Source: Achromobacter pestifer (GTDB lineage Bacteria; Pseudomonadota; Gammaproteobacteria; Burkholderiales; Burkholderiaceae_B). From it: a DNA stretch of 64,000 bases. The stretch is from assembly GCF_013267355.1 (NCBI RefSeq), contig NZ_CP053985.1:1426001-1490000 (forward strand), written 5' to 3'. Under the pieces are notes generated by a model. It worked only from the letters and a program-made list of their open reading frames with translations, did no database searches and was not told the DNA's origin. Within the stretch, counting starts at the first letter, position 1. Each line of letters starts with the position of its first letter. The position numbers and the translations under genes are program-made. Positions 18,367 to 43,423 of the stretch are shown here, one piece after another.

Positions 18367-18419
18367 GCAAGAAGATTCCTGGTGAAAGGCAGCATTACGG
18401 AAAGGAGGAGTATGCCGCG

Positions 18420-25387: not shown

Positions 25388-28300
25388 TCAGAAGCGCACG
25401 GCCAGCTTGAGCACGCCCGACTGCTGCCGGTTGCCGCCGCCGAACTGCGCGTCATAGGCGATGCCAGCCGTCGTGTTGCGCGTGATGGCCATCTCGGCGC
25501 CCAGGCCCAGCACGGCAGCGTCACGTGCGATCGGCACGCCGGTCACCGAGAACGTGCTGCCGCCTTCGAAAGCCAGCTGCTGCTTGGGCTTCACATCACC
25601 CATGGCATGACGCCAGCCCAGCGACGCGGTCAGGCGGCCAGGCGCGCGGTCGGCACCGAACTCCCAGGCGCCGCGCAGACCCAGCGTGGTGCTGGTCACG
25701 TCATCGGAATTGCTGGACCCGTGCAGGGCCGCCGTGCCGCCCGATTCCTCGAAGCCACGCGTGCGCAGCTGGTTCCACGCCAGGCCCGCAAAGGGTTCGA
25801 TGGTGTAGGCATCGCCCAGCGGCAGGTTGTAGCCGAGTTCGGTGAACACCTGCGTCGACGAGGCGTGATAGGAGGACTCGAGCCGCTGGTTCAGGCTGCC
25901 GGCCGCCACGTCGCGTTTTGCGTCGATGTCATGCCAGGTGTAGGCCGCGCCGGCCATGAAGCGGACGTGGCCGGGACCGGCCTGGAAATTCCGGCCGCCG
26001 AACAGGGTCGCGGTGTAGCTGTCGACATTGGTGCGCGAGGACACATCGTCGATCGAGTTGTGGCTGCCGATGTAGCCGACCGCGCCGCCCAGGCGCCAGC
26101 CGCCGCCCACCGCGCCATCGCCGCCAACGAAGAGGCCGCCCGACGATTGGCTCACGCTGGACGCGTTGCCATCGCCGTCGAACTTGCTCCAGTTGCCGAA
26201 CGCTTGCGCCCAGACCGGCGACGCGCCGCTTTGCGGCATGGCGGCGGCCGACGGCGAGCCCAGCTGGGCCGTGGGCCGTCCGGCCAGCACCGGCGCGTCG
26301 AGGTTGCCGCGCAGATGGGACAGCGGCAGCGTGCGCACGGTATCGCCCTGGCTCAACAGCACGCTGGCGGTGCTTGCGTACGCTTCGCCCGACAGCATCC
26401 TCAGGGCCGAGCGTGCTTCGTTCGGGGTCATGGCGAGCACGGCGGTCGCAACCTGGCTGGCGCCGGTGGTCTTGCCCGCGGCGATGCCGCTATCGACCAG
26501 GGAAGATCCGCTGCCGGTCGACGGCGAATCATTGCCGGCAGTGGACGAGCCGTTGCCGGTCGAGGATGAACCGTTGTCCGTCGACGTGGAGCCGTTGCCG
26601 GCCGAGGACGAACCGTTACCCGTCGACGTGGAGCCGTTGCCGGTCGAGGACGAACCGTTGCCCGTCGACGTGGAGCCGTTGCCGGTCGAGGACGAACCGT
26701 TGCCCGTCGACGTGGAGCCGTTACCGGTCGAGGACGAACCGTTGCCCGTCGACGTGGAGCCGTTACCAGTCGAAGACGAACCGTTGCCCGTCGCCGGCGG
26801 CTCCTCCTTGTCCAGCGCGCCGCCCACGTTGCTCTCGTTACCCGAGCCGCCGATACTGCCGATCGGCACGTCGTTGCGCGTCAGGGTCATGTACGCATTC
26901 TTCGGGTCATAGCTGAGCGTGGGCGTCAGGAACGCATATCCGCTCGAAGCGCCGGTGAACTGGCCCTGGATGCCGCCGTCCGCGGTCAGGATGTTGTAGG
27001 TCGTGCGCGGCGCATAGTTGCCGTCGGGGCCCACGTGCGCCACGGTGCCATCGAGGTAGGCGACGCCAGTGACATGGATGCGGTCGCTGAGACTGCTGCC
27101 CGGATCGGCGTGCACGCGGTAGATGGTGTTCTGGCCAAAGGTCAGGTTGCCGTTGACGGTGAGCGTGCCCATGGGCGTGCCGTCGTTGCCGGGAGAGATG
27201 ACCGCGGTGGGATAGAGGTTGGTGGTGCCCACCTGGCCCACGCCCGCCAGCACGACTTCACGGCCGATGTCCATCGGGCCATTCAGCTTGCCGTCGATCT
27301 CCAGGGCGCCGTCGGCGATCAGGATGGGACCCGTAAGGCCGCTGCTGTCGGCGGTCAGGATCACCGATCCCGGGCCGGTCTTGACGAAACCCTGCGTGCC
27401 TTGCAGCGGGTTGTCGATAGTGTCGACGAATTGGCCCGAAGCATAGGTGCCGTCACCGACCACGATCGCGGGCGGGTTGCCGCCGCTGCCAACCAGGGTG
27501 ATGGGAGCGCCTTGCAGGCGATAACGGTCGGTGGCGAACTGGATGCCGGACACGCGCACCGGACCGGCGCTGCCGTCCACGTTCACCGTGCCCGCCGCGC
27601 CCGTGAAAATGGCGTAGCCGCCATCGGGCAGAGCGCCCGCGGCATTGCTCGGACTGTTCCAGTTCGTGCTGGCCGCGCTCCAGGTGCCGTTGCCGCCGCC
27701 CGAGCGGGTCGCGGATGCCGCGCCGTTGCCGTTCCACAGGTTGGTGGTGCTCGGACCCAGGATGAGATTGATCTGCTTGTCGCCGGTCAGATTCTGGATG
27801 GTCGCGGCGGGCGTGGAATCGCCCGAGACCGAGCCCAGCGTCAGGCCGTTGCCGCTCAGGTTGCCACCGTACGACAGGATCCGGTAGTAACCGGCGTTGA
27901 CGCCCAAGGTGTTGACCGTGACGTTCAGCGTGGTGTTGTTGATGGCGGCGTTGCCGCGCACGGTGATGTTGTCGCCGGTGCCCGGTTGCGTAATGGGCAG
28001 CCCCGCGTAACCGGTCTCGAAATTGAATACGGCGTTGTTCATCGACAGATTGCCGTTGACGACCAGATTGCCGTTGGAGACTCCGGTCGGCGTGCCGACT
28101 TCATACCCGGGCGCCACGCGCGCGCCCGACACGTTGAGATCGCCATTGATCGCGCCAAAGCCCGCGACCGTGCCGTTCGAGTTCGCATTGACGTTGCCGC
28201 CCAGCGTAACGCCCGAGCCGCCGCCGTTGCCGCCGATCACCAGCGTGCCGCCGTTGACATCCACCCCGCCTGGGAAATTGGCCGAGCCGTCGAACACCTG

Positions 28301-28405
28301 CGTATTGCCCGACGTAACCGTCAGGTCCGCAGCCGTGACGCCACCGCAGTAGGACGCGCTCAGCGCGAGCGTCGCCGTCAGCCATTTCTTCGTGTCGTGT
28401 ATCAA
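25388..28405 (-). CDS. Type V autotransporter with repetitive Ser/Thr-Gly-Asn linker
   Basis: A 1005-residue surface protein. TTG start at 28405 with GGAGG seven bases upstream. The signal peptide ends near residue 25 (...GGVTAA). Residues about 30-520 form a Gly/Asn-rich beta-helix passenger with repeated 'GGVDVNGGTLVIGGNGGG'-type turns. Residues about 538-617 are a low-complexity linker of heptads such as STSTGNG and SSSTGNG. The C-terminal ~270 residues (from about SPVWAQAFGNWSKFDGDG) are an autotransporter beta-barrel ending in the outer-membrane signature VLKLAVRF. No protease triad or RGD was noticed, so adhesion or biofilm is a guess. It is transcribed away from the signalling genes across the operator-like array. 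Confidence 0.93.
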   Translation of the reverse strand: MIHDTKKWLTATLALSASYCGGVTAADLTVTSGNTQVFDGSANFPGGVDVNGGTLVIGGNGGGSGVTLGGNVNANSNGTVAGFGAINGDLNVSGARVAPGYEVGTPTGVSNGNLVVNGNLSMNNAVFNFETGYAGLPITQPGTGDNITVRGNAAINNTTLNVTVNTLGVNAGYYRILSYGGNLSGNGLTLGSVSGDSTPAATIQNLTGDKQINLILGPSTTNLWNGNGAASATRSGGGNGTWSAASTNWNSPSNAAGALPDGGYAIFTGAAGTVNVDGSAGPVRVSGIQFATDRYRLQGAPITLVGSGGNPPAIVVGDGTYASGQFVDTIDNPLQGTQGFVKTGPGSVILTADSSGLTGPILIADGALEIDGKLNGPMDIGREVVLAGVGQVGTTNLYPTAVISPGNDGTPMGTLTVNGNLTFGQNTIYRVHADPGSSLSDRIHVTGVAYLDGTVAHVGPDGNYAPRTTYNILTADGGIQGQFTGASSGYAFLTPTLSYDPKNAYMTLTRNDVPIGSIGGSGNESNVGGALDKEEPPATGNGSSSTGNGSTSTGNGSSSTGNGSTSTGNGSSSTGNGSTSTGNGSSSTGNGSTSTGNGSSSAGNGSTSTDNGSSSTGNGSSTAGNDSPSTGSGSSLVDSGIAAGKTTGASQVATAVLAMTPNEARSALRMLSGEAYASTASVLLSQGDTVRTLPLSHLRGNLDAPVLAGRPTAQLGSPSAAAMPQSGASPVWAQAFGNWSKFDGDGNASSVSQSSGGLFVGGDGAVGGGWRLGGAVGYIGSHNSIDDVSSRTNVDSYTATLFGGRNFQAGPGHVRFMAGAAYTWHDIDAKRDVAAGSLNQRLESSYHASSTQVFTELGYNLPLGDAYTIEPFAGLAWNQLRTRGFEESGGTAALHGSSNSDDVTSTTLGLRGAWEFGADRAPGRLTASLGWRHAMGDVKPKQQLAFEGGSTFSVTGVPIARDAAVLGLGAEMAITRNTTAGIAYDAQFGGGNRQQSGVLKLAVRF
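26553..26793 (-). repeat. 42-bp tandem repeat inside the autotransporter gene
   Basis: The plus-strand block GTCGACGTGGAGCCGTTGCC recurs at 26580, 26622, 26664, 26706 and 26748, exactly 42 bases apart, with single-base variants. Each unit encodes 14 residues (two heptads). Because 42 is a multiple of three, copy-number change would alter linker length without frameshift. Confidence 0.95.
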
Positions 28406-28865
28406 CGTAAATCCTCCATATGTCGATTAATAAATCTGATATCCAAGGCATTACCGGATTGCTATAAAAGTATTATTAAGTAACCGGGTAACCCTAATGG
28501 CCGAAACAAGTTTTCTCGAAAAAAGGAGGCAATTTATACCCCTTTTCTTTCAATATCTAAAATTAATGAATAGATACCATCTTTATTATTTAAATCAGTG
28601 ACATGGATACCAACCAAGAAACGAAAACAGTGCGTATGGATACCATCCTTTAATAAAAACCAATCACAATGGGCAATATCCTAAGTATTTATTTTTCAAT
28701 AACGGATACCATCCACGGCCATGCGGCCCGGGCTCTTTTCCTCGATTTTCAAGGCGCTCAAGAAACAAATTGACATAGCAGGGCCGGAAAAGCGGCGCAT
28801 CTGGCGGCCCTGCTTCCAGAATTTTCTTATCCGTGGGGATCGGCCCGGCCCATACCATCGCTTGC
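28406..28865. promoter_or_regulatory. AT-rich intergenic region between autotransporter and kinase genes
   Basis: 460 bases without a credible gene, far more AT-rich than the surrounding DNA from about 28410 to 28700. It must hold the promoters of the minus-strand autotransporter and the plus-strand signalling operon, and it contains the repeat array annotated separately. No confident -35/-10 pair could be assigned. Confidence 0.75.
28572..28714 (+). promoter_or_regulatory. Operator-like array with 33-bp periodicity
   Basis: AGATACCATCT at 28572, GGATACCAACC at 28605, GGATACCATCC at 28638 and GGATACCATCC at 28704; spacings are 33, 33 and 66. The missing register at 28671 holds a degenerate GGGCAATATCC. 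Each core is an interrupted palindrome GGAT-ACC-ATCC, and the first copy keeps the symmetry with A/T at both ends, which suggests selection on a dimer-binding site. A further ATACCATC is at 28852. The binding protein is unknown. Confidence 0.7.
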
Positions 28866-31697
28866 ATGATGGCCGCCCCCAGCCTCCCCGACGGATACAT
28901 GCCGGCAACCGCCAGGTTGCCGATGATCCTGCTGCACCTGCTCGCCATGGCGCTGCTGGCCTGCATATTGGTCGGGACGATGCTGTCCATGTACTGGTCG
29001 TTCAGCGACGAAGTCTCCAGCTACCGCCGCCGCATGAACGCCGCCGCCGACCGGGCGCAGATATTCTTCGACCAGCGCGAGGCGCTGCTCCGTTCCGTGG
29101 CCGGCTCGTCGGTGCGCAACACCGACCGCATACCCGCCCAGCACACGCCCAGGACATTCGGCCAGACCGGACAAATCAGCGTGATCCCGCTGACAGACGA
29201 CGCGGATGCCTACGAATGGGCCTTGATTCTCACCCGCCGCAACCGGGCAGACCTGGCCACGGCCAATGCGCGCATCGTCTACACCACCCTGACCGAACCC
29301 GGCGTGACGCGCCTGGCGTTGGACGACACGCGGCACAGCGGCCACGCTATCTCCACGGAAACTGAAAAGTGGCTCTACGAAACCCTGGCTGCGCACCACG
29401 CCACACCGGATCCGGACGACGGCCGCCCGCCAGTCGTCTGGATACGGCCCCTGATGGACCCCACCGATCATCTGTTTCTCTATACGCCTCTGGACACCAC
29501 GGGACGCGAGCAGACCTGGGTGGGGCTAGAGGTCGACGACATTGCCTCCGCCATCGGGGCGGAGCACCCCAGCGACGGGGCGAGCTATACGCTTTACGAC
29601 AGCGACAACCGGGTGGCCTTGCGCGGCGGACCATCGCCATCCGCGACGGACTCGATATCGGCAAGACTGAGCCGCGACTCCTTCGGCTACCAGGGCAGAA
29701 GCTGGCTTCCCCACAGTCTCGCACTGAGCAAGGCTGTCGGCGAAGCTGGCTGGCGGTTGGTCTACTACGTGCCGACACAGGATGTGCTGCGCCACGGCGC
29801 GTCCGCCTTTTGGGCCGTCGGCGCCGTCGCCGCCTGCTTGAGCACGGTGGTCCTGCTGGGCGTGCGCCACATCAGGGAAAAACTGGTCTCTCCCGCCATC
29901 CGGTATCAGACGGCCCTCATCGATAGCCTGGCCTTGAACCGGAAGATCATCGAAGTCGCGCCGATCGGACTCAGCCTGGTGCGCCCCGCCGACGGCACCC
30001 AGGTCATATCGAACGAGGCGGCCCGGCATCTGCTGGACGCGCACGACAGCTGGCGCGAGGACACACGCGCCGCAGGCAATCAGGCCGGCCGGCATGAGTA
30101 TCAGCTGGGCGACGGTCGCACCGTGTGCCTGACATACGCCGCGACCAGCTACCAATCCGAGAACGTGGTGATATGCGCGATCAGCGACATTTCCGCCCAG
30201 AAGGAAGTCGAGCGCACCTTGCGCAACGCCAAGCAAGCCGCCGACCAGGCGAACGACGCCAAGACCTTGTTCTTCGCCACGATCAGCCACGAGATCCGCA
30301 CCCCGTTGTACGGGATACTCGGCACGCTGGAACTGCTCGCGCTCACGCCCATGACGAGTCAGCAGCAGCAATACCTGCACACCATGCAGCAATCGTCCTC
30401 GACCTTGCTGCGCACCATCAACGACACGCTGGACCTGTCCCGCATGGAGGCCGGCCACGAAGACCTGATCCTCTCGGCGTTTTCCCCCGCGGAGATGGTC
30501 GAAGGAGTGGTGGCCAACTACGCCGCCCGCGCCCAGGGCAAGGGGCTACAGATCTTTTCCATTTCCGGCGCCGGCATGCCGGCGATGGTAAAGGGAGACC
30601 TGACCCGGTTGCAGCAGATTCTCAACAACCTGGTGAGCAACTCGGTCAAGTTCACCGAGGGCGGCCGGGTCGTGCTGCGCGCAACCGCGAGCGCCGTCGA
30701 GGCGGACAAGGTCACGATGCGATTCCAGGTCACGGATACCGGCGTGGGCATACGCGCGGAATCGCAAGCCCAGTTGTTCGAACCGTACTTCCGGGCGCAT
30801 CCCGGCCTGGACCAGGACGTGAGCGGCACCGGTCTGGGCCTGGCCATCAGCCGGCGCCTGATCGACCTGATGGACGGCAGCCTGTCCGTGGTCAGCGAGG
30901 TCGGCCTGGGCACCAGCATCACCTTCACCCTCACGCTGGACGTAACCGAGATGGAGCCGGCATCTCCCATACTGCTGCGGCGCAGCGCCGTCTACGTCAG
31001 CGGCGCCATTCCGGAGGTCGTGGCGAACACATGCGCGTGGCTGAACAAGTGGGGAGCTATCGCCATACCGTATCGAGCGCGGGCCCCCATGCAGGATGCC
31101 GGCAACGCAGTCCTGCTGCAGACCTGGCCTCCCGGACAGCCCGAACCATGCTGGACCAGAAGCAAGGTACGCGTGCTCGCGCCAGGCGCGGACCAAGCGT
31201 CGATCGCATCGCGCGGCAGCCGCCTCGGCATCACGAGCCAGGGCAATCCATTCAGCATCGGCATCGCGGTAGCCATGGCCCAGCACGGCCACGAACAGCC
31301 TTTGCTCCCCCCTCCCCGCGCGCAACGCCTGTCGCTGGGACAACGGATCCTGGTCGTCGAAGACAACGCGATCAACCAGGTCATCCTGCGGGAGCAGCTC
31401 GAACACCTGGGATGCTCGGCCACCATCGTCTTCAACGGCCGCGAGGCGTTGCAACGATGGGACCCCGGCAAGTACGACGCCGTCATCACGGACATCAATA
31501 TGCCGATCCTGGACGGCTACGACCTGACACGGGCGCTGCGCGAACTCGGCTACCGAGGAACCATACTGGGCGTCACCGCCAGCGCGGCGCCCGAAACCAT
31601 CACCAAAGGGCTGGAAGCCGGAATGAACCAGGTGCTGCTGAAACCCTTGCCCATCCTGGCCCTGACCGCAACCCTGAACGCATACGCAGAAGGCTGA
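28866..31697 (+). CDS. Hybrid sensor histidine kinase (HisKA-HATPase-REC)
   Basis: A membrane sensor of about 943 residues. Starts at GTG 28833, ATG 28866 and ATG 28899 are all in frame and none has a strong ribosome site. One transmembrane helix near residues 20-42 and a second near 311-332 flank a roughly 270-residue periplasmic sensor domain. A PAS-like cytoplasmic segment precedes the H-box FATISHEIRTPLYG (His475). The ATPase motifs NNLVSNSVKF, DTGVGI and GTGLGLAIS are intact. The C-terminal receiver has VVEDNAINQ and phospho-acceptor Asp876 in TDINMPILDG. No HPt is present in this protein; one is available in the partner at 32971. The architecture resembles RocS/CblS-type kinases near fimbrial genes. 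A REC-EAL gene follows six bases on. Confidence 0.93.
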   Translation: MMAAPSLPDGYMPATARLPMILLHLLAMALLACILVGTMLSMYWSFSDEVSSYRRRMNAAADRAQIFFDQREALLRSVAGSSVRNTDRIPAQHTPRTFGQTGQISVIPLTDDADAYEWALILTRRNRADLATANARIVYTTLTEPGVTRLALDDTRHSGHAISTETEKWLYETLAAHHATPDPDDGRPPVVWIRPLMDPTDHLFLYTPLDTTGREQTWVGLEVDDIASAIGAEHPSDGASYTLYDSDNRVALRGGPSPSATDSISARLSRDSFGYQGRSWLPHSLALSKAVGEAGWRLVYYVPTQDVLRHGASAFWAVGAVAACLSTVVLLGVRHIREKLVSPAIRYQTALIDSLALNRKIIEVAPIGLSLVRPADGTQVISNEAARHLLDAHDSWREDTRAAGNQAGRHEYQLGDGRTVCLTYAATSYQSENVVICAISDISAQKEVERTLRNAKQAADQANDAKTLFFATISHEIRTPLYGILGTLELLALTPMTSQQQQYLHTMQQSSSTLLRTINDTLDLSRMEAGHEDLILSAFSPAEMVEGVVANYAARAQGKGLQIFSISGAGMPAMVKGDLTRLQQILNNLVSNSVKFTEGGRVVLRATASAVEADKVTMRFQVTDTGVGIRAESQAQLFEPYFRAHPGLDQDVSGTGLGLAISRRLIDLMDGSLSVVSEVGLGTSITFTLTLDVTEMEPASPILLRRSAVYVSGAIPEVVANTCAWLNKWGAIAIPYRARAPMQDAGNAVLLQTWPPGQPEPCWTRSKVRVLAPGADQASIASRGSRLGITSQGNPFSIGIAVAMAQHGHEQPLLPPPRAQRLSLGQRILVVEDNAINQVILREQLEHLGCSATIVFNGREALQRWDPGKYDAVITDINMPILDGYDLTRALRELGYRGTILGVTASAAPETITKGLEAGMNQVLLKPLPILALTATLNAYAEG

Positions 31698-31703
31698 AAG
31701 AAC

Positions 31704-32936
31704 ATGCTGTCCAAAATTAAAGTCCTGGTGCTGGACGACCACGCCTACCAGTGCATGCTGCTGAAAGACATGCTCGAGGAAGCGGGTTTCAGGCATGTCG
31801 ATACGACGCTGGACGCGCACGAAGCCTTGGAGCGGATACGGAAAGAAGGCCATCAACTGGTGCTGATGGACGTGGACATGCCCGGCATGGACGGCGCGCA
31901 ATTCATCCATGAGCTCGCCTGTCGCGATCTCAACCCGATACTGGCGATCATCACGGGATGTTCCCGCCGGATGAGCAACAGCATCGGCCTCATGGCCAAA
32001 GAGCGCGGATTCGCGGTGCTGGGAACCTTCATCAAACCCGTTTCCACGGAACAGATCGGCAGTCTGGCGGTAAGCCTGCAGAGAAAGCCGCCTGCCCCGC
32101 CAACCGCGCAGCCCGGTTCTTGCGCCGACGACATCCGGCCGCTGCTGGACAGGCGCATGGTTGAAACCGCCCTGCGCGACGGCAGCATCCAGGCCTGGTT
32201 CCAGCCGAAGAAATCGCTCGCCTCCGGCAACATCGTGGGCGCCGAGGCGCTGGTCCGCTGGCAGCACAAGGAACTTGGCCTGATGCCGCCATCCTGGTTC
32301 CTTAAGTCGTTGCGGGCCTACAACCTGGACCACGAGCTGCTCCTGCGCATGTTGGACGACGGCCTGAAGGCCTATTCCATCTGGCGCGGCCAGGGACACC
32401 GCATCCCCATCTCGGTCAACCTTTCCGCCAGCTTGCTGGACCTTCCGCAACTTCCGGACGAACTCCATGCCATGGTCACCAAACTCGACATCCCCGCCTC
32501 GGACGTGACTTTCGAACTGCTTGAAGACGCGATGCCGGCGCTCGCGGGCCAGTTCCACATGGGGGCAAGCCGCCTGCGCCTGAAGGGATTCGGCCTGTCG
32601 CAAGACGATTTCGGCAAAGGTTACAGCTCGATGTACAGCCTGATCTCCACGCCCTTCACCGAGGTGAAGATCGACCGCGCATTCGTCAACGGCGCCGCGG
32701 CCAACGAGGTACTGGCGGCCGCCCTGGTGGCCTCGATCCAATTGGGGCGGCAACTGGGCCTGCAAGTGACGGCAGAGGGCGTGGAAACGCTGGAAGACCT
32801 GCAATTTCTGAGGCGGATCGGATGCGATGTCGCTCAGGGATTTCTGATTTCCGCGGCCGTCAATGTCGCGACCTTCTGCGAGCTGCTGGCTTACGAGCCC
32901 AACTCTTACTTCACCCCATTGTCCCCACCCCACTAG
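31704..32936 (+). CDS. REC-EAL response regulator (c-di-GMP phosphodiesterase)
   Basis: 410 residues: an N-terminal receiver (about 1-125; acidic pair in LVLDDH, phospho-acceptor Asp56 in MDVDMPGMDG, conserved Lys in FIKPVS) and a C-terminal EAL domain. Catalytic residues appear intact: Glu181 in GAEALVRW, NLSASL, the ELLED glutamates, QDDFGKGYSS, VKIDRAFV and TAEGVETLEDLQFLRRIGC...QGF. The predicted role is phosphorylation-controlled hydrolysis of c-di-GMP, as for Pseudomonas RocR. It lies between two hybrid kinases and is likely a target of their phosphorelay. There is no DNA-binding domain. Confidence 0.93.
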   Translation: MLSKIKVLVLDDHAYQCMLLKDMLEEAGFRHVDTTLDAHEALERIRKEGHQLVLMDVDMPGMDGAQFIHELACRDLNPILAIITGCSRRMSNSIGLMAKERGFAVLGTFIKPVSTEQIGSLAVSLQRKPPAPPTAQPGSCADDIRPLLDRRMVETALRDGSIQAWFQPKKSLASGNIVGAEALVRWQHKELGLMPPSWFLKSLRAYNLDHELLLRMLDDGLKAYSIWRGQGHRIPISVNLSASLLDLPQLPDELHAMVTKLDIPASDVTFELLEDAMPALAGQFHMGASRLRLKGFGLSQDDFGKGYSSMYSLISTPFTEVKIDRAFVNGAAANEVLAAALVASIQLGRQLGLQVTAEGVETLEDLQFLRRIGCDVAQGFLISAAVNVATFCELLAYEPNSYFTPLSPPH

Positions 32937-32970
32937 GGCCAAGCCTGCCGACATCTTTCTGATACTGGAT

Positions 32971-35082
32971 ATGCCGCTGAATAAAAAAAATCGCGGCCTG
33001 CGCCGCCTGAACATCGCATTTCTCTGCGCCCTGCCCTTAGCCCTGCTCTGCGCCGCCGCGCTCTACTGCGCACACCGACAAGTCCTGCTGCGGCACGCTG
33101 ACCTGCTGCAACTCGACTTCCCAACGCTACTGCGCACCAATGCCTGGTTGTTCGCCTGCGTCTTGCTCCTACTGATCGCCGGACTCCACGCCGGCGCCGT
33201 GCTCTGGTTCTGGTGCCGCCGCTACATCGTCCAGCCGGCGCATGCGGCCAGGCGGGCGCTCGCTGAATGCGAAGCGCTTGGCCGGACCATGCTCGCCACG
33301 GTTCCCTGCGCGCTGTGCGCGCTCTCCCGCGCCAACGGCCGGCTGGTCTTCAGCAACGCATTGGCGCTGCAATGGCTGGGAGCTGGCGCTGGCCAGCCGC
33401 TGCCGGACACACCCGACGTCAGGCGCTTGTTGCGGCAGGCGCTGGAGGCGGAGGAACCCGGCAGCATCGAGGCGTTCAACGCCCATGATGGCCGCGCACT
33501 GACGGTGGCCTACGCTCCCACGCGATACCACAGACAGGATGTGGTGCTGTGCGCCTTCGCCGACATCAGCGCGCGCGCCGAAATGGAACATCTTCTGGGC
33601 CTCGCCAAGGCGCAGGCGGACAAGGTCTACGAGTCCGGGGCCGGCATCCTGTCCAACATCGCCCGCGAGATTCGCATGCCGCTGTATGGGGTGCTGGGCA
33701 CCCTGGAAGTGCTGGGAATGACGGCGCTGAACGAGGAACAGCGCCAGCATGTCGACCGCATCCACAGCGCCTCCCTCGTTCTCCAGCAGCTCACCGGCGA
33801 CCTGCTCGACATCGCCAGGATCGAGTCCGGGCAGTTCGCCCTGGAAGCCATCGCCTTCGACCCGCGCGAGCTGGTGGAAGGCGCGGTAGCCGCCCATGCC
33901 TCAATGGCTGAACAAAAAGGGTTGATCATCCATGGCGGCATCGACGCCTCGGTGCCGGACTGCGTCTGCGGCGACGCCGGCCGCATCCGGCAGATCCTGG
34001 GCCATCTGCTGAGCAACGCCATCAAGTTCACGGAATCCGGCCAGGTCGTCGCCAGGCTGCGCGCCCAAGCGATGCCGGACGCCAGGCTGCGTCTCCACCT
34101 GCAGGTGACCGACAGCGGCATCGGCATCGCCGCAGCCGAACAGGCCAGGCTGTTCGAGCCCTTCCACCGCCCCGCAGCCAGTTCGCAGGCTGCGCGCGGC
34201 GCGGGCCTGGGTCTGGGCCTGTTCCTGTGCGCCCGTCTCGCGGCGCTCATGGGAACCCGCATCCGGGTCATCAGCGAACCAGGGCTGGGCAGCAGCTTCT
34301 CCGTTTCCTTCATGCTGGACCAGGCGCAGGCGCCCTGCGGTCCGGCCCCGCAGTTGCAGGGCCTGAATGCCCACAATCTCCTGCACCTCCGGATCCTCGT
34401 CGTCGAAGGCAACCCCATCAACCAGGCCACGCTGCACGATCAGCTCATGCGCCTGGGTTGCCATGCCACGCTCGCGTCGGACGGGGCCGAAGGACTGGCA
34501 TTGTGGAACATACAGCCCTTCGACCTGGTCATGACGGATACCGATCTGCCCAGCATGAACGGCTACGCGCTCGCCAGGGCCCTGCGCGCCCAGGGCATCA
34601 CGGCGCCCATCATCGCCCTGCTCACGAGCGCGAGCCGGGCGGAGGAGCAACGGTGCGCGGCGGCCGGCATGGACGGTTGGCTCGCCAAGCCGATAGGCTT
34701 GCGCGCGCTCAGGCAAAGACTCCAGGCATACGCTACCGCGCCCCCCCGTGCGCAAGGCATTTCGGCCGCAACGCCGCGGATCGGTGCGGCAGAGGTTCCC
34801 GCCAAATACAAAGCCGTCTTTCTCGAAACCATGGACCGCGATATCGTCCGGCTGGAAGCCTCGATGCGGAACGGCGACACCGCGGATGTCCGCGCCCTGC
34901 TGCACCGGATACGCGGGGGCCTGGCCGCCGTGCACATGATCCCTCTACTGAGCCAGGCCGACGACCTGTCGGCCTTGCAGCGCAAGCAAGGCCTGAACGG
35001 CGCGGTGCCTCGGCAGATCGCCGCTTTCATCGGGCAGCTGCGCGGCAAGATGCGCGAAATCGCGGCAGAAGACAACGGCTGA
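32971..35082 (+). CDS. Hybrid kinase-like protein lacking the H-box histidine, with REC and HPt
   Basis: 703 residues. Start ATG 32971 (weak ribosome site; 34 bases after the REC-EAL stop). Two N-terminal transmembrane helices (about residues 14-32 and 55-78) with almost no periplasmic loop. The segment that should be SHEIRTP reads IAREIRMPLYGVLG, so the phospho-accepting His is Arg232. ATPase motifs are mostly kept (LGHLLSNAIKF, DSGIGI, GLGLGLFL). The receiver has VVEGNPINQ (one acidic pocket residue replaced by Gly) but retains Asp523 in MTDTDLPSMNG. A C-terminal HPt domain carries His645 in LLHRIRGG. It probably cannot autophosphorylate and may instead relay phosphate from the kinase at 28866 or act as a scaffold. 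Confidence 0.9.
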   Translation: MPLNKKNRGLRRLNIAFLCALPLALLCAAALYCAHRQVLLRHADLLQLDFPTLLRTNAWLFACVLLLLIAGLHAGAVLWFWCRRYIVQPAHAARRALAECEALGRTMLATVPCALCALSRANGRLVFSNALALQWLGAGAGQPLPDTPDVRRLLRQALEAEEPGSIEAFNAHDGRALTVAYAPTRYHRQDVVLCAFADISARAEMEHLLGLAKAQADKVYESGAGILSNIAREIRMPLYGVLGTLEVLGMTALNEEQRQHVDRIHSASLVLQQLTGDLLDIARIESGQFALEAIAFDPRELVEGAVAAHASMAEQKGLIIHGGIDASVPDCVCGDAGRIRQILGHLLSNAIKFTESGQVVARLRAQAMPDARLRLHLQVTDSGIGIAAAEQARLFEPFHRPAASSQAARGAGLGLGLFLCARLAALMGTRIRVISEPGLGSSFSVSFMLDQAQAPCGPAPQLQGLNAHNLLHLRILVVEGNPINQATLHDQLMRLGCHATLASDGAEGLALWNIQPFDLVMTDTDLPSMNGYALARALRAQGITAPIIALLTSASRAEEQRCAAAGMDGWLAKPIGLRALRQRLQAYATAPPRAQGISAATPRIGAAEVPAKYKAVFLETMDRDIVRLEASMRNGDTADVRALLHRIRGGLAAVHMIPLLSQADDLSALQRKQGLNGAVPRQIAAFIGQLRGKMREIAAEDNG

Positions 35083-35203
35083 ACTTGCGCCATCTCAATG
35101 CGAGAACCGCCGCAAGTTTGAATGCGGCTCGATGGCAGGCAATTGAGAAAATTCCCATAGTTCATGCATCCAGTGGTTTCTAGAATCACAATTTGAAAAC
35201 AGA

Positions 35204-36073
35204 ATGCATGCCTCGCGCGCTAGCGCAGTCGCCATCCTGGCCGACAACGCGCAGGCTTGCGCCAAAAAAATGGAACCTCTCACCAGCGGTGGTGTATTCC
35301 CTCTTCCCGCAGATCCGGCATCAGCGGAAGTTGGCTATCAGCCCGTCTTTTCCGCCGATGGCCGGGTGTGCGAATACGCGTTGCCCGACCTGTACCCGGG
35401 CCACGCCTCCAGGCAAGATGGCGGCCATCCCGCCACGCAAGAACTGCACGACGCGCTGCATCTCTTCGGGCAGGGAAATCAAGGCATTCCACTGTCCTTC
35501 AGTTATGCGCGCGATGCCGCAAGCGTCCCGTGGTCGGCGCACAGTCTGTGCGCCGAACTGAACCTGTCACTGGAGCGGAATCGCTTGCATTTGCTGCCTG
35601 GAAAAAGCGATGACGGCGCTACGGGTCCGAGCTATCCGGCCTCGCTGGTCACGCTGAACATCCCCATGACGTGGGATCTGCTGCCGGATGCCGAACTCTT
35701 CAAGAACCGGCACGACTTCGGCACCGGCCTGAGAGTCAGGATCGGCCCGACGCTCGTGGAAGGCCGGCCGGTTCCGCACGGCGTGCTGCGCGTGGCGGGA
35801 CTGCATATGAAGATCCCCGAACGGTTCTCGGAACATCCCATGCTGCATGGAAAGTTCTTTTCCCTGCTGCAGCGGGCGCAGGCGTTCAAGCTGCCCGTGC
35901 TGGTCATGGGTATCGATGACGCCACCGATTTCCATTGGATGCGCTCCTTTCCGAACCTGATGTTCCAGGGGGATCTGCTGTCGACGCGCATCGGCGCGGA
36001 CAGCCTGAGTCTGCTTCTGGCGATGGGCGGAGACAGGTGGCGCGACTTCAAGGTTGGAGGGCATGCGCGATAG
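35204..36073 (+). CDS. Degenerate EAL-domain protein, predicted inactive
   Basis: 289 residues, soluble, no signal peptide. The EAL fold is recognisable by pattern: GYQPVFSADGRVCEYALPDLYPG matches the strand that normally reads YQP...GYEALLR, with catalytic Glu replaced by Tyr58. LHMKIPERF replaces LKIDRSF, VLVMGIDDATDFHWMRSFPN replaces AEGVETxEQxxxLRxLG, and FQGDLLSTRI replaces QGYLFSRP. The metal-binding acidic residues are largely missing, so c-di-GMP hydrolysis is unlikely. YdiV-type proteins show that such domains can work as protein-binding regulators. Position between the phosphorelay and the fimbrial genes suggests a regulatory role. The family assignment is by eye and needs profile confirmation. 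Confidence 0.7.
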   Translation: MHASRASAVAILADNAQACAKKMEPLTSGGVFPLPADPASAEVGYQPVFSADGRVCEYALPDLYPGHASRQDGGHPATQELHDALHLFGQGNQGIPLSFSYARDAASVPWSAHSLCAELNLSLERNRLHLLPGKSDDGATGPSYPASLVTLNIPMTWDLLPDAELFKNRHDFGTGLRVRIGPTLVEGRPVPHGVLRVAGLHMKIPERFSEHPMLHGKFFSLLQRAQAFKLPVLVMGIDDATDFHWMRSFPNLMFQGDLLSTRIGADSLSLLLAMGGDRWRDFKVGGHAR

Positions 36074-36243
36074 CCGCGCGTGATCTGGCTTTCTTCGGCG
36101 CCAGAACAAGAAATTTCTCAGCCCTGAGAGCACGTTGAACCCGGATGATGCATGGGGTCGGACGCACACAAGGCGTCCGCTACACAACCCCGCCTTCACG
36201 AACCCTAGAAGGCATTCATTCAACATCAACTCCAGGTTTTCAT

Positions 36244-36771
36244 ATGAAACTGAACAAGATCCTGATCGCGCTGGGATTGGCTGGCGCGTTTGCCGGCATG
36301 GCGCATGCGGCTACCCCCGCGGAGATAAGCAAAAGCGTCACCAAGAGCATCACCCTGACCGCTCAGATCAACGACGCGATTTTCGTGTCCAAGCCCGACG
36401 GCTCCACCTGGTACGGCACCGAGGAGCTCGAACCGGAAGACCACAAGCAGCTGAAATTCTCCAAGACGCTACCGATCCGCATATTTTCGAAGGCCGCTGG
36501 AATCAACGTCAAGCTCTCCCAACCTCTGAAAATGTCCAACGGGCACCTCGAGATGAGCAACGCGCAGGTGATCTTGACCCACGCCGCAGGCGACGAAACC
36601 CTGGCATACGACGCGTAGAAAGCGATTACCCAGGTCGTGAAAACCGACGGCGGCTACGACGAAATTCACAATCTGGAAATTTCGGTGGATAGCCCCAAGC
36701 AAAGCGGCACCCAGACCGTCAACGGCAGCTACAGCGGCAATCTGGTCATGGTTTTCGAGCCGATCCCTTAA
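36244..36771 (+). pseudogene. Major fimbrial subunit (alternate CS1/CFA-I class) with in-frame amber codon
   Basis: Signal peptide MKLNKILIALGLAGAFAGMAHA, then a mature start ATPAEISKSVTKSITLTAQIN like CFA/I-class pilins. The reading frame meets TAG at 36616-36618 (codon 125), after ...GDETLAYDA. Beyond it the same frame stays open and pilin-like for 50 more codons to TAA at 36769-36771, ending GNYSG-like NGSYSGNLVMVFEPIP. The downstream part is essential for a complete pilin fold, so the gene is either broken by one substitution, made functional by amber suppression, or a sequencing error. It is the first gene of the fimbrial cluster; the usher gene begins 68 bases later. Confidence 0.88.
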
Positions 36772-36839: not shown

Positions 36840-39101
36840 ATGCGCGCTCATTGGGTTTCCTTTTGCCTCAAAAAAATCCTGCCGTGCGTTCTTGCCGCGT
36901 CCTCCACCCAGGTCTTTGCGCAAGTGAAGATTTCCTACGGCATCCCCGAAGGCTTCAGCGCGGTTGAAATGGACAATAGCGCAAGCTACGTCTCCAGCTT
37001 CAACGGCAGGACGCTGCCTGGATTGATCGCCTATTCGCTGGAGCAGAACCGGCTCGCGTTCGACCCCGTCAAGTATGCGGAAAACGGTGTGACGGTGGAA
37101 GAAATAGAAACCATCCGCCAGGTGATTTCCACGATCGACTACAAGCAATGCGTCAACGGCTGCGACCTGCGCGTGGCGGAGCACTACGTCACCATCGACA
37201 AGATCCGCCGCACATTGCAGATCAGAAGCTCGCGCGACGACTACCTGTCTCCGGCGACCACCTGGGGACTGATCAACAATCAGTCGCTGGACCTGCGCGG
37301 CTCTTCCGACAGCTATCGCGCCATGAACCTCAGCGGCACGACATGGCTGGGCCTGCCGCTGCGCAGCTTCGGCTACATGAGCTGGTATGGCAGCCGTAAC
37401 CGCATGCGCGGCCGCAGCAACGGCGATCAGGGTATCTCGTCCTACTTCCTGCAGAAAAACTTTCACGGCACCTATGTGCGGGCGGGTAAGCAGAACAGCC
37501 TCGATTACGCCTCGGGCTCGGTCAGCACGATGCTCTCGCCCAGCTTCGATCAGTTCATCACCATCGGCAGCCAGAACCATTTGCGGGCCGACCGCGATAC
37601 GGGTTCGCTGGTGCTGTATTCCACCGCGGAAGGCAACTACGAGTTCTACCGCAACGGGCGTCTCATCCTGAAGCGCCCCGCCATGCTTGGCCGCAACGAG
37701 ATCAGCTTCATCGACCTGCCTGGCGGCTACTACCCGGTGGAGATCCGGCTGGTGGACCGCAACGGCAATCTGATCAACCGCGAAACTCGCGACATCAACA
37801 ATCTGAATTTCAACGGCGGCGGCGGCAATTCCTGGCACATGACCGCGGGCAAGGAAATGGGCGCGGACGGGCAACTATTCCAGGCCGCCGTGAGCCGCAA
37901 CCTGAGCCAGTTCTACCTGAACGCCTCGGTCATCAGCGGCGATCAGTCCCGCTGGGCGGGCGAACTCAACGTCACGCGTCCCTCCCGCATCGGCACGGCA
38001 GACCTCACGCCCACGCTGGGCCTGTTGGGCGGCGAGCGCGGCACGGGCGGCTATTTCAACCTGTCGATGAGCGACCCCGTGCTGGGCAGCCTGTCGGCCA
38101 GCCGCTACCAGAACACAAGCGTATCGCGCTTCTATTGGGGCGCGCCCAGCACCAGTTTTTCATACAGCAGAAGCGTGGGCGAGGTCATGCTGGGCTACAA
38201 CTACAACAAGCACAGCCGCGGCGAAGTACAGCAAGCCGAAGCACGCTGGAACTACCGCCCCAACGGCCTGTGGTCGACCTTCTCCTTGGGCGTGCAAAAA
38301 GGCGGCTACGGCCGTGGCGACGGCGGCTACGCCGTGTACTTCAACATGAGCTGGACCCTGGACAAGACCCAAGCCAGCTTCCGCGCGGCCCGCCAGGGCG
38401 GCGAAACCCAGCTCAGCGGCGACTACCGCAAGGAGTTCCAGGACAGCTACGGTGTCTCGACGGCCGGCGTGACCGTCAACCGGAGCAGCGGAAACGACAG
38501 CGTCAACCTCTATGGCAGCCGCTCGGGCACGCGTGGTGAAACATCCCTCAGCCTGGGCCACAGCAACTACGGCAGCAACGCGGATTTCAACTACCGCGGC
38601 ATGCTGGCGGCCAGCGGCCAGGGCATTGCGCTGGGACGTTACAGCAGCAGCGGCAGCGCCATGCTGCTGAAAACACCCGAAGTCGCCGGCGCTTCCTACG
38701 GCTTCAGCGTAGAGGGCCATCCGGTCGGCGGCGGCAGCACCTACGCCGTACCGCTAGGCCAGTACCGCGACGTTCCGTTCGCCCGCGTCCTGAGCAACAG
38801 CGAGCACATGGACATGAGCATCGAAGTCCCTGCCAACGTCGTCCGCGCCCATCCCGGCCAGGTGTATGCGGCGCAAGCCAAGGTGGCGATCAACATGGTC
38901 TACAGCGGCATCCTGACGGATCCCTCCGGCAAGCCCCTGGGAGGAACCATCCAGGAAACCGGCGACACCGCCTATCCCAACGGACTGTTCTCCATCGCCA
39001 GCAAGACCGTGCTTCGCAACATCACGCTGCGGCAGCCGAGCCGCAGTTACACCTGCGACCTCGGCAACGCCATCAACGGCAGCTACTACCGCTGCCAATA
39101 A
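36840..39101 (+). CDS. Fimbrial outer-membrane usher, alternate (CS1/TcfC) class
   Basis: A 753-residue beta-barrel usher that exports and assembles pilins. The signal peptide ends ...STQVFA. The N-terminal substrate-recruiting region follows, then the barrel with EGNYEFYRNGRLILKRPAMLGRNEISFIDLPGGYYPVEIRLVD (the plug-like segment around residues 265-310). The C-terminal domain has two cysteines (SRSYTCDLGNAINGSYYRCQ). It is shorter than FimD-type ushers (>800 residues) and close to the length of CooC/CfaC/CblC ushers. Chaperone 1 follows after 24 bases. Confidence 0.92.
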   Translation: MRAHWVSFCLKKILPCVLAASSTQVFAQVKISYGIPEGFSAVEMDNSASYVSSFNGRTLPGLIAYSLEQNRLAFDPVKYAENGVTVEEIETIRQVISTIDYKQCVNGCDLRVAEHYVTIDKIRRTLQIRSSRDDYLSPATTWGLINNQSLDLRGSSDSYRAMNLSGTTWLGLPLRSFGYMSWYGSRNRMRGRSNGDQGISSYFLQKNFHGTYVRAGKQNSLDYASGSVSTMLSPSFDQFITIGSQNHLRADRDTGSLVLYSTAEGNYEFYRNGRLILKRPAMLGRNEISFIDLPGGYYPVEIRLVDRNGNLINRETRDINNLNFNGGGGNSWHMTAGKEMGADGQLFQAAVSRNLSQFYLNASVISGDQSRWAGELNVTRPSRIGTADLTPTLGLLGGERGTGGYFNLSMSDPVLGSLSASRYQNTSVSRFYWGAPSTSFSYSRSVGEVMLGYNYNKHSRGEVQQAEARWNYRPNGLWSTFSLGVQKGGYGRGDGGYAVYFNMSWTLDKTQASFRAARQGGETQLSGDYRKEFQDSYGVSTAGVTVNRSSGNDSVNLYGSRSGTRGETSLSLGHSNYGSNADFNYRGMLAASGQGIALGRYSSSGSAMLLKTPEVAGASYGFSVEGHPVGGGSTYAVPLGQYRDVPFARVLSNSEHMDMSIEVPANVVRAHPGQVYAAQAKVAINMVYSGILTDPSGKPLGGTIQETGDTAYPNGLFSIASKTVLRNITLRQPSRSYTCDLGNAINGSYYRCQ

Positions 39102-39125: not shown

Positions 39126-39809
39126 ATGCTACGCAAGACTCTGCTCACGCTGTTCGCTTCGATGCTGCTGGCCGCACAACCGGCGCAAGCCGAAGGTGAA
39201 CTGCTGGTGATGCCGGCCCGAATCAAGGTCTTCAATGGTCACGACTACGGCGTCTCCGTCAGGAACATGGGCGACGGACCGCTCTACCTGTCGGCCACGC
39301 TGCAGAAGGTGATGAATCCCGGCCTCGCCCCCGAGGAGCATGTGCCGTTAAGCCAACTCGAGCATCCAGGCCTGCTCGCCAGTCCTGACAAGTTGACGCT
39401 GGGACCCGGCCAAAGCCGCACCATCAGCCTGAAGTCGCTATCCGTGCCGGCAGCGGAAGAGATGTATCGCCTGTACGTCGTGCCAGTAAGGGCGATGCAG
39501 GTGGAAGAAGCGCCCCAGGACAAGATCAGCGCGCCCATGTCCGTCTCCATAGGCTATGGCGTGCTGGTCCAGCACATGCCTCCTCCGGGTCAGCAACGGT
39601 CGGCCTGGTCCTATCGCTGCGAAGGCGAGGGAGTGAGGCTGGAGAACACCGGCAATGTGTCGCTGGTTCTTGCGGATATTGCTTCGCCGGACCGTAGGCA
39701 GGAGCAGAACCGGGTGGTCCTGTTTCCTGGCCTGTCCCGACGCTTCGAGGGGCGGGAGCTGAAGATGCTGGTCGGCGATGCGCCGCAGGGCTTCGATTGC
39801 CGCGGATGA
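39126..39809 (+). CDS. Fimbrial periplasmic chaperone 1
   Basis: 227 residues with a signal peptide ending AAQPAQA. Two Ig-like domains: domain 1 has RIKVFNGHDYGVSVRNMGDGPLYLSATLQKV, then LTLGPGQSRTISLKSL (the G1-preceding loop) and YRLYVVPVRAM; domain 2 includes WSYRCEGEGVRLENTGNVSLVL. A cysteine pair is present in domain 2. It should cap pilin subunits and deliver them to the adjacent usher. Its TGA overlaps the adhesin start by four bases (ATGA). Confidence 0.92.
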   Translation: MLRKTLLTLFASMLLAAQPAQAEGELLVMPARIKVFNGHDYGVSVRNMGDGPLYLSATLQKVMNPGLAPEEHVPLSQLEHPGLLASPDKLTLGPGQSRTISLKSLSVPAAEEMYRLYVVPVRAMQVEEAPQDKISAPMSVSIGYGVLVQHMPPPGQQRSAWSYRCEGEGVRLENTGNVSLVLADIASPDRRQEQNRVVLFPGLSRRFEGRELKMLVGDAPQGFDCRG

Positions 39810-40885
39810 ACACATCAATCACAACCGGGAGGCCAAGTTTGTTCAAACTAGTTTTGGGACAAAGAACATGGGCAGGACTCATGCCCGCTGTTCTGGCGCT
39901 CAGCGCAATACTGACGAACGGGGACGCCTCGGCGAACGAAAACGCCTGGGGCGCCAACCTCGAATACAGCAACATGAGCAATGGCTATAGCAATTGCACT
40001 TATCAGGACAATGGCAACGGCACCAGTACAGTGGGCGTGACCATCAGCTACAAGAGCGCTTGGGGTCACCTTGGCAACCGGCCATTCAGATCCCGGGGAG
40101 TTTTGGTCTACACCTATGACAAGAATGGCAATCTGCAAAATAGCGACATCCTCGCCCGCGACGTCTACATGGACGGCACGCGGCACACGGGAATGTCAAG
40201 CAACCGCAGCTTCGGCGTGTTCTACAACGTAACCATGGGGCGCCCCTTTGCGTCCTGGCACGTGACGAACGCCCAAACCGTGCGGGTATTAGTCAATATT
40301 GACAACAAATTTCTGACGCAGTGGCCTGCAATAGGGGTAAGAGCCGGAAACGTCTCGCAGGTCAACATTTACGCCGAAATCACCGGCCTGGCCTATATCG
40401 GCGTGAACAATTCTTCGGGCAACTGCAATGTGATCACCGAGCCCGAAATTCCGCCACCGCCCGTAGATGCAAAGATCACCATGTCGGCGCCCGATTGGGA
40501 CTTGGGAGAGCTGCCACAGGGGACTGCAACGAGAACGCCTTTTCATGGCGTCGGCGACCAACTGTGCTTCACTTATGACAACCTCAAATGGACAGGATTG
40601 CGCTACGCCATCAACGCCACCAACCAGAATGGCCTGTCAGGTAACGGTTCATACCAACTCAGGCACCTGACCTCGCCTGCCGACACGGTGCCATACCGGG
40701 TCGTACTGCAAGACGCGACGACCAATACCGAAGTCGCGCTGCCCAACACAAGCAATGCAGTTTCCGCCTTAGGCAACAACGGACGCGATTGCTTCTTCCC
40801 CACGTTCACGGCCGACACGCCGAAGGCAGCGAAAGAGGGCGACTACAGCGACGTGCTCACCTTCACGGTCGTCGCGCGGCCTTAG
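39806..40885 (+). CDS. Fimbrial tip adhesin (CfaE/CblD-like)
   Basis: 359 residues, the length typical of CfaE-class tip adhesins. A long signal region ends near ...GDASA (about residue 45). Residues 46-205 form a Tyr/Asn-rich putative receptor-binding domain. A proline hinge (EPEIPPPPVD, about residues 211-220) leads to a pilin-like C-terminal domain ending VLTFTVVARP. Codon use and GC (for example 39960-40350) are visibly more AT-rich than in the flanking chaperone genes, as often seen in adhesins under diversifying selection or transfer. The ATG overlaps the chaperone 1 stop, implying coupling. Confidence 0.85.
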   Translation: MNTSITTGRPSLFKLVLGQRTWAGLMPAVLALSAILTNGDASANENAWGANLEYSNMSNGYSNCTYQDNGNGTSTVGVTISYKSAWGHLGNRPFRSRGVLVYTYDKNGNLQNSDILARDVYMDGTRHTGMSSNRSFGVFYNVTMGRPFASWHVTNAQTVRVLVNIDNKFLTQWPAIGVRAGNVSQVNIYAEITGLAYIGVNNSSGNCNVITEPEIPPPPVDAKITMSAPDWDLGELPQGTATRTPFHGVGDQLCFTYDNLKWTGLRYAINATNQNGLSGNGSYQLRHLTSPADTVPYRVVLQDATTNTEVALPNTSNAVSALGNNGRDCFFPTFTADTPKAAKEGDYSDVLTFTVVARP

Positions 40886-42654: not shown

Positions 42655-42787
42655 TTCCCCGCAAATCAGTCCAAGGCGCCGCCGGCGGCCATGGCGCCAA
42701 CGCCACACATGTGCCCCTCGACAGTGCTGCATTCGCACACTTGCGGTAACCTTCAGCCTGAACAAATCTGAGGTGTTGGAAATAACA

Positions 42788-43423
42788 ATGGGTTTTGAAA
42801 AACTTGCCGACCTGCGCGAGCAGCTGCGGGCACAGGCTCAAAAGGCGGTGCCGGTCCAACCGAAGGCGGCAGGCCGGACAAAGAAGCGGGAGCCTGATGA
42901 AGCGAAGGCTACGGCGCGGCCGCAGCAAAAGCGCGAATCTGGTCAAGCGAAGGCTGCTGCCCGCCCGCAGCAAAAGCGCGAGCCCGTCGACCCCGTGGTC
43001 GAGGCCATCTGGCGCCTGCAGAAGCACTTCCCGCAGGCTTTCCCAAAGAATCCCGCGCCGAAGCTGCCGCTCAAGCAGGGCATCCTGGCCGACGCGGCCC
43101 AGCATCTCGAAAAGCTGGGCATGACGGAAGAGCAGCTCAAGCAGGCCATCGCCACTTGGTGCAAGGGCAGCCGCTACTGGGGCAGCATGGTCGCTGACGC
43201 CACCCGCGTCGACCTGCAAGGCCAGCCTGCGGGCACGGTGACGGCGGAGCAAGCCGCCTATGCGCGCCGCCAGGCTTCGCGCCGGCCGGCCGGCAAGGCT
43301 CGTCCCGCGAAGAACGCCGCCGCGCCGGCCTCGTCGCCGGCCGAGGCGCCTACTGCTGCGCCCGCGCCTGATTCCGCGCCTGACTCCGCGGCCGCCACGC
43401 CCGCCCCCGGCGACACAGCCTGA
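42788..43423 (+). CDS. proQ: ProQ/FinO-domain RNA chaperone
   Basis: 211 residues. A central ProQ/FinO domain (about residues 72-170) contains WRLQKHFPQAFPKNPAPKLPLKQGI, TEEQLKQAIATWCKGSRYWGSMV and ATRVDLQGQPAGTVT. The N-terminal arm is very basic and carries an imperfect duplication of ARPQQKRE. The C-terminal 45 residues are Ala/Pro-rich and disordered. Family members bind structured RNA 3' ends and small RNAs. It is probably transcribed from its own promoter in the 133 bases after the chaperone gene. Confidence 0.9.
   Translation: MGFEKLADLREQLRAQAQKAVPVQPKAAGRTKKREPDEAKATARPQQKRESGQAKAAARPQQKREPVDPVVEAIWRLQKHFPQAFPKNPAPKLPLKQGILADAAQHLEKLGMTEEQLKQAIATWCKGSRYWGSMVADATRVDLQGQPAGTVTAEQAAYARRQASRRPAGKARPAKNAAAPASSPAEAPTAAPAPDSAPDSAAATPAPGDTA

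Follow-up and report, generated by a model that had tools for sequence, protein, structure and literature searches.

A locus in Achromobacter that is probably a variant of the PvrSR/RcsCB phosphorelay, with its RcsB-like regulator in trans and an added degenerate EAL gene

The window analysed here is a stretch of 64,000 nucleotides of Achromobacter pestifer (G000:C2:1426001-1490000, G000 being the 7.18-Mb window genome), in which four consecutive plus-strand genes encode a hybrid kinase (HK1), a phosphodiesterase with a receiver and an EAL domain (REC-EAL), a second hybrid kinase with a histidine phosphotransfer (HPt) domain (HK2) and a degenerate, or dead, EAL protein. This locus is probably a variant of the PvrSR/RcsCB relay of Pseudomonas aeruginosa, a switch for surface adhesion, in which the regulator stands in trans, the HPt kinase is reduced and a dead EAL gene has been added, and we consider it quite probable that a split Pvr/Rcs-type phosphorelay explains it. 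In the window clade the regulator would act from elsewhere in the chromosome, and the locus likely has a DNA-binding output that is not adjacent to it. A previous reading of the same DNA without database searches (the sequence-only reading) had considered the combination an undescribed variant, and we agree. Among the titles and abstract openings of the matches listed, the Achromobacter literature on PvrR, on RcsB and on cyclic di-GMP (c-di-GMP), fimbriae and EAL yielded no published description of the locus, and nothing was found that joins PvrS and RcsC homologues with Bordetella.

Pfam searches confirmed the four genes of the sequence-only reading at their coordinates, as well as domains consistent with a multi-step relay, namely HisKA, HATPase and receiver in HK1, and the same three domains plus the sole HPt of the cluster in HK2:

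28866..31697, + strand: HK1, a PvrS-like hybrid kinase with intact H-box and receiver motifs
31704..32936, + strand: REC-EAL phosphodiesterase, PvrR/RocR-like, catalytic motifs present
32971..35082, + strand: HK2, RcsC-like, apparently reduced to an HPt relay; its longest open reading frame (ORF) begins at 32863
35204..36073, + strand: fourth gene, predicted EAL-fold protein in whose alignment the catalytic signatures are missing

The kinship of these proteins points to one known system. Of the NCBIfam models, PvrR (NF052596) fits the REC-EAL best, with 446 bits against a cut-off of 580, so that the equivalog threshold is not reached, and RcsC fits both kinases best (405 and 327 bits, cut-off 920). 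In P. aeruginosa PA14, pvrS, pvrR, rcsC and rcsB encode 931, 399, 1084 and 231 residues and lie beside the cupD fimbrial genes, according to PMC2696094. The same gene order with similar sizes is found in relatives within the genus, as in L041 (944, 407, 1100 and 230 residues), and the fourth member in these relatives is RcsB-like: its best model is RcsB, with 174 bits in L041 and 177 bits in L037 (cut-off 235), and the closest solved structure to the L037 copy is RcsB (E 4.4e-45). The window shares with the PA14 system, which is carried on PAPI-1, the order and domains of hybrid kinase, REC-EAL and HPt kinase, adjoining fimbrial genes, an RcsB-like regulator and, possibly, its boxes. It differs in that no RcsB-type regulator lies inside the cluster, the regulator being 2.56 Mb away, in the additional dead EAL gene, in the adjoining autotransporter, and in an HK2 deprived of the sensor loop, the HisKA His, an intact receiver and the phosphatase Thr. 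The sequence-only reading had compared the locus with the Roc/Sad and Cbl systems. The likeness to RocS1-RocA1-RocR of P. aeruginosa holds for a REC-EAL and an HTH (helix-turn-helix) regulator acting on chaperone-usher fimbriae, and RocR is the closest solved structure to the REC-EAL (E 1.6e-48); the output regulator related to the window is, however, RcsB-like, there are two kinases with HPt in the second, and a dead EAL gene is present. The nearest relative, PvrSR/RcsCB, was missing from that list.

Within the genus, the RcsB-like regulator lies inside the cluster in 20 of the 31 related operon loci. It follows the kinase genes in L041, L042, L043, L046, L048, L049, L050 and L051 (the operons of the last three being incomplete), a second RcsB-like type takes this place in L040, L044, L054, L056, L057 and L059, and the regulator precedes HK1 in L037 and L038, as does a 236-residue ORF matching it in L039; L094, L095 and L128 complete the count. 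It is absent from 11 loci, namely L088-L093 and the five belonging to the window clade; in L091, less than 3 kb of sequence is left on the regulator side of the operon. Other loci (L045, L052, L053, L055 and L058) lack the kinase genes, and in these the regulator and the dead EAL gene are arranged divergently. The classification leaves out kinase matches near 40% in G254, G256 and G259. The window clade consists of G000, G240, G200, G251 and G250, with 100/100 support and G250 basal in an HK1 tree of 18 rows. In addition to the window-type locus, its member G251 has a second complete operon at L128 (G251:C1:3690000-3709900), which comes with an RcsB-like regulator, an autotransporter and a dead EAL gene of its own.

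In the window genome the ortholog of the regulator is encoded at G000:C2:4018300-4018953 (218 residues, REC and GerE domains intact). Genes flanking this site, a pentapeptide gene among them, are found around the cluster of L041, L053 and L055 as well; because of this shared context, we infer that the site is the ancestral one, from which the kinase operon is missing in G000, as is the dead EAL gene. Orthologs at E<=1e-70 are present in 35 of 43 genus genomes. Four of the eight genomes without one (G075, G137, G153 and G192) have the second RcsB-like type in the cluster, G222 has a 44% relative instead, and the remaining three are G255, G257 and G260, of which G257 is 78% and G260 57% complete. 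A presumably deleterious rcsB mutation has been described in Achromobacter isolates from the cystic fibrosis lung (PMC4552427), although it may concern a different gene.

The kinase operon might instead work with another DNA-binding regulator of the genome, for instance a NarL-type one of the two near 6.395 Mb, beside a cluster of REC-EAL and hybrid kinases. We regard this as unlikely: 14 sequences of the genome do match the regulator at E<=0.001, among them these two of 43% identity, but they have their own adjoining kinases, only the RcsB-like ortholog approaches 70% identity, the next best reaching 43%, and the boxes described below are of RcsB type. The cluster in question (L076, G000:C2:6386000-6405900) is a second one in the same genome with a REC-EAL, hybrid kinases and two NarL-type regulators.

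Candidate binding sites were sought with the 14-position RcsAB consensus as given in PMC12388358. RcsB-box-like sequences precede the dead EAL gene and, weakly, HK1 and the pilin gene:

28816..28829, + strand: RcsB-box-like site, 50 bp upstream of the HK1 start, 10/14, at the same distance in relatives
35144..35157, + strand: RcsB-box-like site, 60 bp upstream of the dead EAL gene, 11/14
36107..36120, + strand: weak RcsB-box-like palindrome before the pilin gene, 9/14

Shuffled regions reached the score of the site in 263/2000 cases at 28816, 13/2000 at 35144 and 455/2000 at 36107, so only the 35144 site stands on its own, since shuffles seldom reach its score. Its counterpart in G200 matches at 13/14, and the pattern TNAGAAWWTTCYYA, fitted after the site was seen, matches once in the whole 7.18-Mb genome, at the dead EAL gene. 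The pilin palindrome is present in the five clade genomes at 8 or 9 of 14. We also scored 44 regions of the genus, 26 before HK1, 12 before dead EAL genes and 6 before a second type of autotransporter. Box-like sites were already known in some of these regions when the set was picked, and the related sequences are not independent, a dependence that the permuted-motif control shares. The mean best match was 10.6/14, compared with 8.6 (sd 0.29, max 9.98) for 300 permuted motifs, none of which (0/300) reached 10.6, and 21/44 regions had a match of at least 11/14, compared with a mean of 0.7 and a maximum of 9 for the permuted motifs. Individually, 26/44 regions beat 300 of their own shuffles at p<0.05 (HK1 11/26, second-type autotransporter 4/6, dead EAL 11/12). 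The distance from the best site to the HK1 start is 48-50 bp in ten loci (G000, G240, G244, G206, G214, G218, G098, G181, G242 and the second copy in G248), four of them scoring only 9/14, and the autotransporter region of L038 contains a 14/14 match.

These results bear on the proposal of the sequence-only reading that c-di-GMP and protein contact may be the main output; the relay would then end in the two EAL proteins, REC-EAL and dead EAL, acting on the fimbriae and the autotransporter without DNA binding. Its observation on gene content was correct, as none of the 14 ORFs from 24.6 to 43.4 kb that were submitted to Pfam has an HTH domain. Moreover, an alignment of 11 sequences shows the EAL, DDFG, KID and EGVE signatures retained in the REC-EAL, and since these catalytic signatures are kept it is probably an active phosphodiesterase; the dead EAL gene is present in 37/41 genus genomes. 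We nevertheless consider an output without DNA binding improbable, because an RcsB-like REC-GerE regulator is part of the cluster in most related loci and stands in trans in the window genome, and because RcsB-type box-like sites precede window genes, that at 35144 being unlikely by chance. A cluster without an HTH gene does not imply that a DNA-binding output is absent. An additional c-di-GMP output through the REC-EAL may exist alongside that of the regulator.

The state of the two kinases also speaks for the split relay. In PA14, as described in PMC3842833, PvrS is the kinase, and RcsC acts as relay and phosphatase: Thr506 accounts for its repressing, phosphatase-like effect, a change of Thr506 turns repression into activation while a further change of His502 makes little difference, and the HPt residue His1029 is required. 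In the window clade, the H-box and receiver motifs of HK1 are intact in 5/5 genomes. HK2, in contrast to the PA14 protein, has lost the HisKA His in 5/5 (Arg in G000, G240, G200 and G251; Gln in G250). The phosphatase Thr is lost in 3/5 (Met, Ser and Ala); a first statement that His and Thr were lost jointly across the whole clade was corrected, since G251 and G250 retain Thr. Both residues are kept in all 29 other HK2s scanned (14 + 8 + 7), a count that leaves out fragments; one of its parts took only proteins of >600 residues, so that the L049 and L050 fragments drop out, and HK2 is absent from L051. The HK2 receiver is damaged in 5/5, one acid of the conserved N-terminal pair being gone in four and the phospho-acceptor Asp being replaced by Asn in G250; we take these residues to have the roles generally assigned to them in receivers. 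The HPt His, however, is kept in 17/17 aligned HK2s and in G251 and G250, including 5/5 of the clade. Finally, the window HK2 is without a large part of the region between its two N-terminal hydrophobic segments: in G244, ~790 bp separate matches that adjoin in the window gene, and the sensor segment of G250 reads as being of intermediate length.

HK2 is apparently no longer a sensor, kinase or phosphatase, but a membrane-tethered HPt carrier comparable to RcsD. Its residues match the RcsD pattern, in which the HisKA His is absent and the HPt His present. The enterobacterial RcsC-RcsD-RcsB system resembles the proposed one in this relay protein without HisKA His (RcsD; PMC3842833) and, possibly, in the RcsAB-type box; it differs in that HK2 arose inside the genus from an RcsC-like protein, of which it retains a receiver-like domain, and in that a REC-EAL is included. 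The five related genomes form a natural counterpart of the site-directed study of RcsC in PA14, with a graded loss of the sensor loop, HisKA His, phosphatase Thr and receiver residues while the HPt His is kept. They make it testable how a pseudokinase HPt carrier like RcsD arises and how a relay is re-routed.

We propose that HK1 would autophosphorylate on its own His, and that the phosphoryl group would pass from there to the HK1 receiver and on to the HPt His of HK2, acting as the membrane-tethered carrier. This HPt would feed two receivers, that of the local REC-EAL and that of the distant RcsB-like regulator. Once phosphorylated, the regulator would bind RcsB-type boxes upstream of HK1, of the dead EAL gene and of the pilin gene, so that the adhesin genes and the EAL pair would rise together. 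The REC-EAL would lower c-di-GMP, and the dead EAL protein would act without catalysis, as a BvgR- or YdiV-like modulator working through protein contact or c-di-GMP sensing. More tentatively, a bifunctional sensor-phosphatase may be turning into an RcsD-like HPt carrier within a single genus, the relay being re-routed via the HK1 receiver, the signal-controlled phosphatase brake being lost, and the braking role passing to a dead EAL protein that is induced by the RcsB-like regulator and either senses c-di-GMP or binds to that regulator.

The ratios of nonsynonymous to synonymous substitution (dN/dS), estimated from three clade genomes, were 0.12-0.16 for HK1, 0.07-0.12 for the REC-EAL, 0.24-0.32 for HK2 and 0.20-0.24 for the dead EAL gene. 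By domain (G000 compared with the other two), the HK1 receiver gave 0.04-0.07 versus 0.21-0.26 for the HK2 receiver. A decaying locus, in which HK2 and the pilin head for loss and signalling is gone, would fit the losses in HK2 of sensor, His and receiver residues, the pilin stop in G000 and the incomplete operons of L049, L050 and L051, but is very improbable given that the four frames are open with dN/dS of 0.07-0.32, that the HPt His is kept throughout the clade, and that the pilin frame of G240, G200 and G251 is free of the early stop.

Several observations nonetheless weigh against the split relay. The HPt domain, on which it depends, shows the highest dN/dS within HK2 (0.37-0.47). In PA14 the receiver Asp of PvrS is dispensable and PvrR acts without need of phosphorylation (PMC3842833), so that the route proposed for the window would differ from that of PA14. 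The boxes of HK1 and the pilin are singly no better than chance in their own regions, another 11/14 site lies in the window at 18368, and 18/44 of the regions scored are no better than their own shuffles at the 0.05 level. The regulator is kept in G232, a genome without close matches to the kinase operon, and may therefore have other partners. Lastly, the pilin frame of G000 is interrupted by an in-frame stop at codon 125, so the fimbria is perhaps not made in the window strain.

The fourth gene is indeed a dead EAL protein, as the sequence-only reading had claimed. Its product gives only a weak C-terminal EAL match, below the Pfam cut-off, and an EAL fold is predicted for it; the EAL, DDFG and EGVE signatures are not among the conserved columns of 31 aligned members. 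Its profile match to the REC-EALs of the cluster is weak (probability 41), which leaves the mapping of active-site residues tentative. Among 250 family genomes the gene was seen in this genus only. Beyond the genus, the only matches of the 31-member profile covered ~50-60 residues close to the C-terminus, the matching frames being 595-801 residues long (151 family genomes, at most 17 candidates scored per genome). The A. xylosoxidans B_1 copy is 88% identical, and the named homologues include those of Achromobacter anxifer, A. aegrifaciens and unnamed species of the genus. Among Foldseek matches of the protein, YdiV holds rank 50. The Salmonella protein YdiV/RflP is a degenerate EAL protein too, and is under Rcs control according to PMC5930307. 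The fourth gene differs from BvgR of Bordetella, to which it is likened by description only, in being linked to a Pvr/Rcs-type operon and not to bvgAS. What such a protein adds to a pair of regulator and phosphodiesterase can now be tested.

Adhesin genes lie on either side of the operon, as the sequence-only reading had stated, an autotransporter on one side and fimbrial genes on the other:

25388..28405, - strand: autotransporter adhesin with a PF03797 barrel, divergent from the operon
28572..28713, + strand: operator-like array of GATACCA-type repeats, with GGATACCATC-type units at 28572, 28605, 28638 and 28704 and a degenerate one at 28671, spaced 33 bp
36244..36771, + strand: putative major pilin frame, weak family match (Pfam CS1 E 0.097, TcfB E 0.0097)
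36840..39101, + strand: TcfC-like fimbrial usher (PF16967, 41.5 bits, cut-off 29.4)
39126..39809, + strand: TcfA-like fimbrial chaperone (50.5 bits, under the model cut-off)
39797..40885, + strand: putative fimbrial tip protein, by position alone; no significant family match found

The 33-bp array is also present in G240, G200, G251 and G250, and upstream of the autotransporter of G222 (L095 18635-18775). Four such units were reached in 0/300 shuffles of the intergenic region, and in four genomes 44/50 repeat columns are invariant compared with 33/92 spacer columns, a contrast due in part to the choice of units. Relatives of the autotransporter are 98% (L035), 96% (L036, residues 1-916) and 92% (L095, G222) identical. 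We had considered the array as an operator of the kinase operon and rejected this, as the same array precedes the 92% identical G222 autotransporter, where HK1 is not a neighbour. For this reason it is most likely the operator of the autotransporter; in G250 it is present though only autotransporter residues 643-1005 matched. The array does not resemble an RcsB box, and a second DNA-binding regulator is implied.

The second type of autotransporter (pertactin-like in L037) is found repeatedly beside the kinase operon of relatives (L037 5623-8994, L038 5763-9128, L088 2934-6278 and L090 13742-17083). The 33-bp array was not found in its six upstream regions; RcsAB matches there were 10-14 of 14 in 5/6 and 9 in the other. 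Directly after the fimbrial genes of the window, a gene of the ProQ/FINO family lies at 42773-43423.

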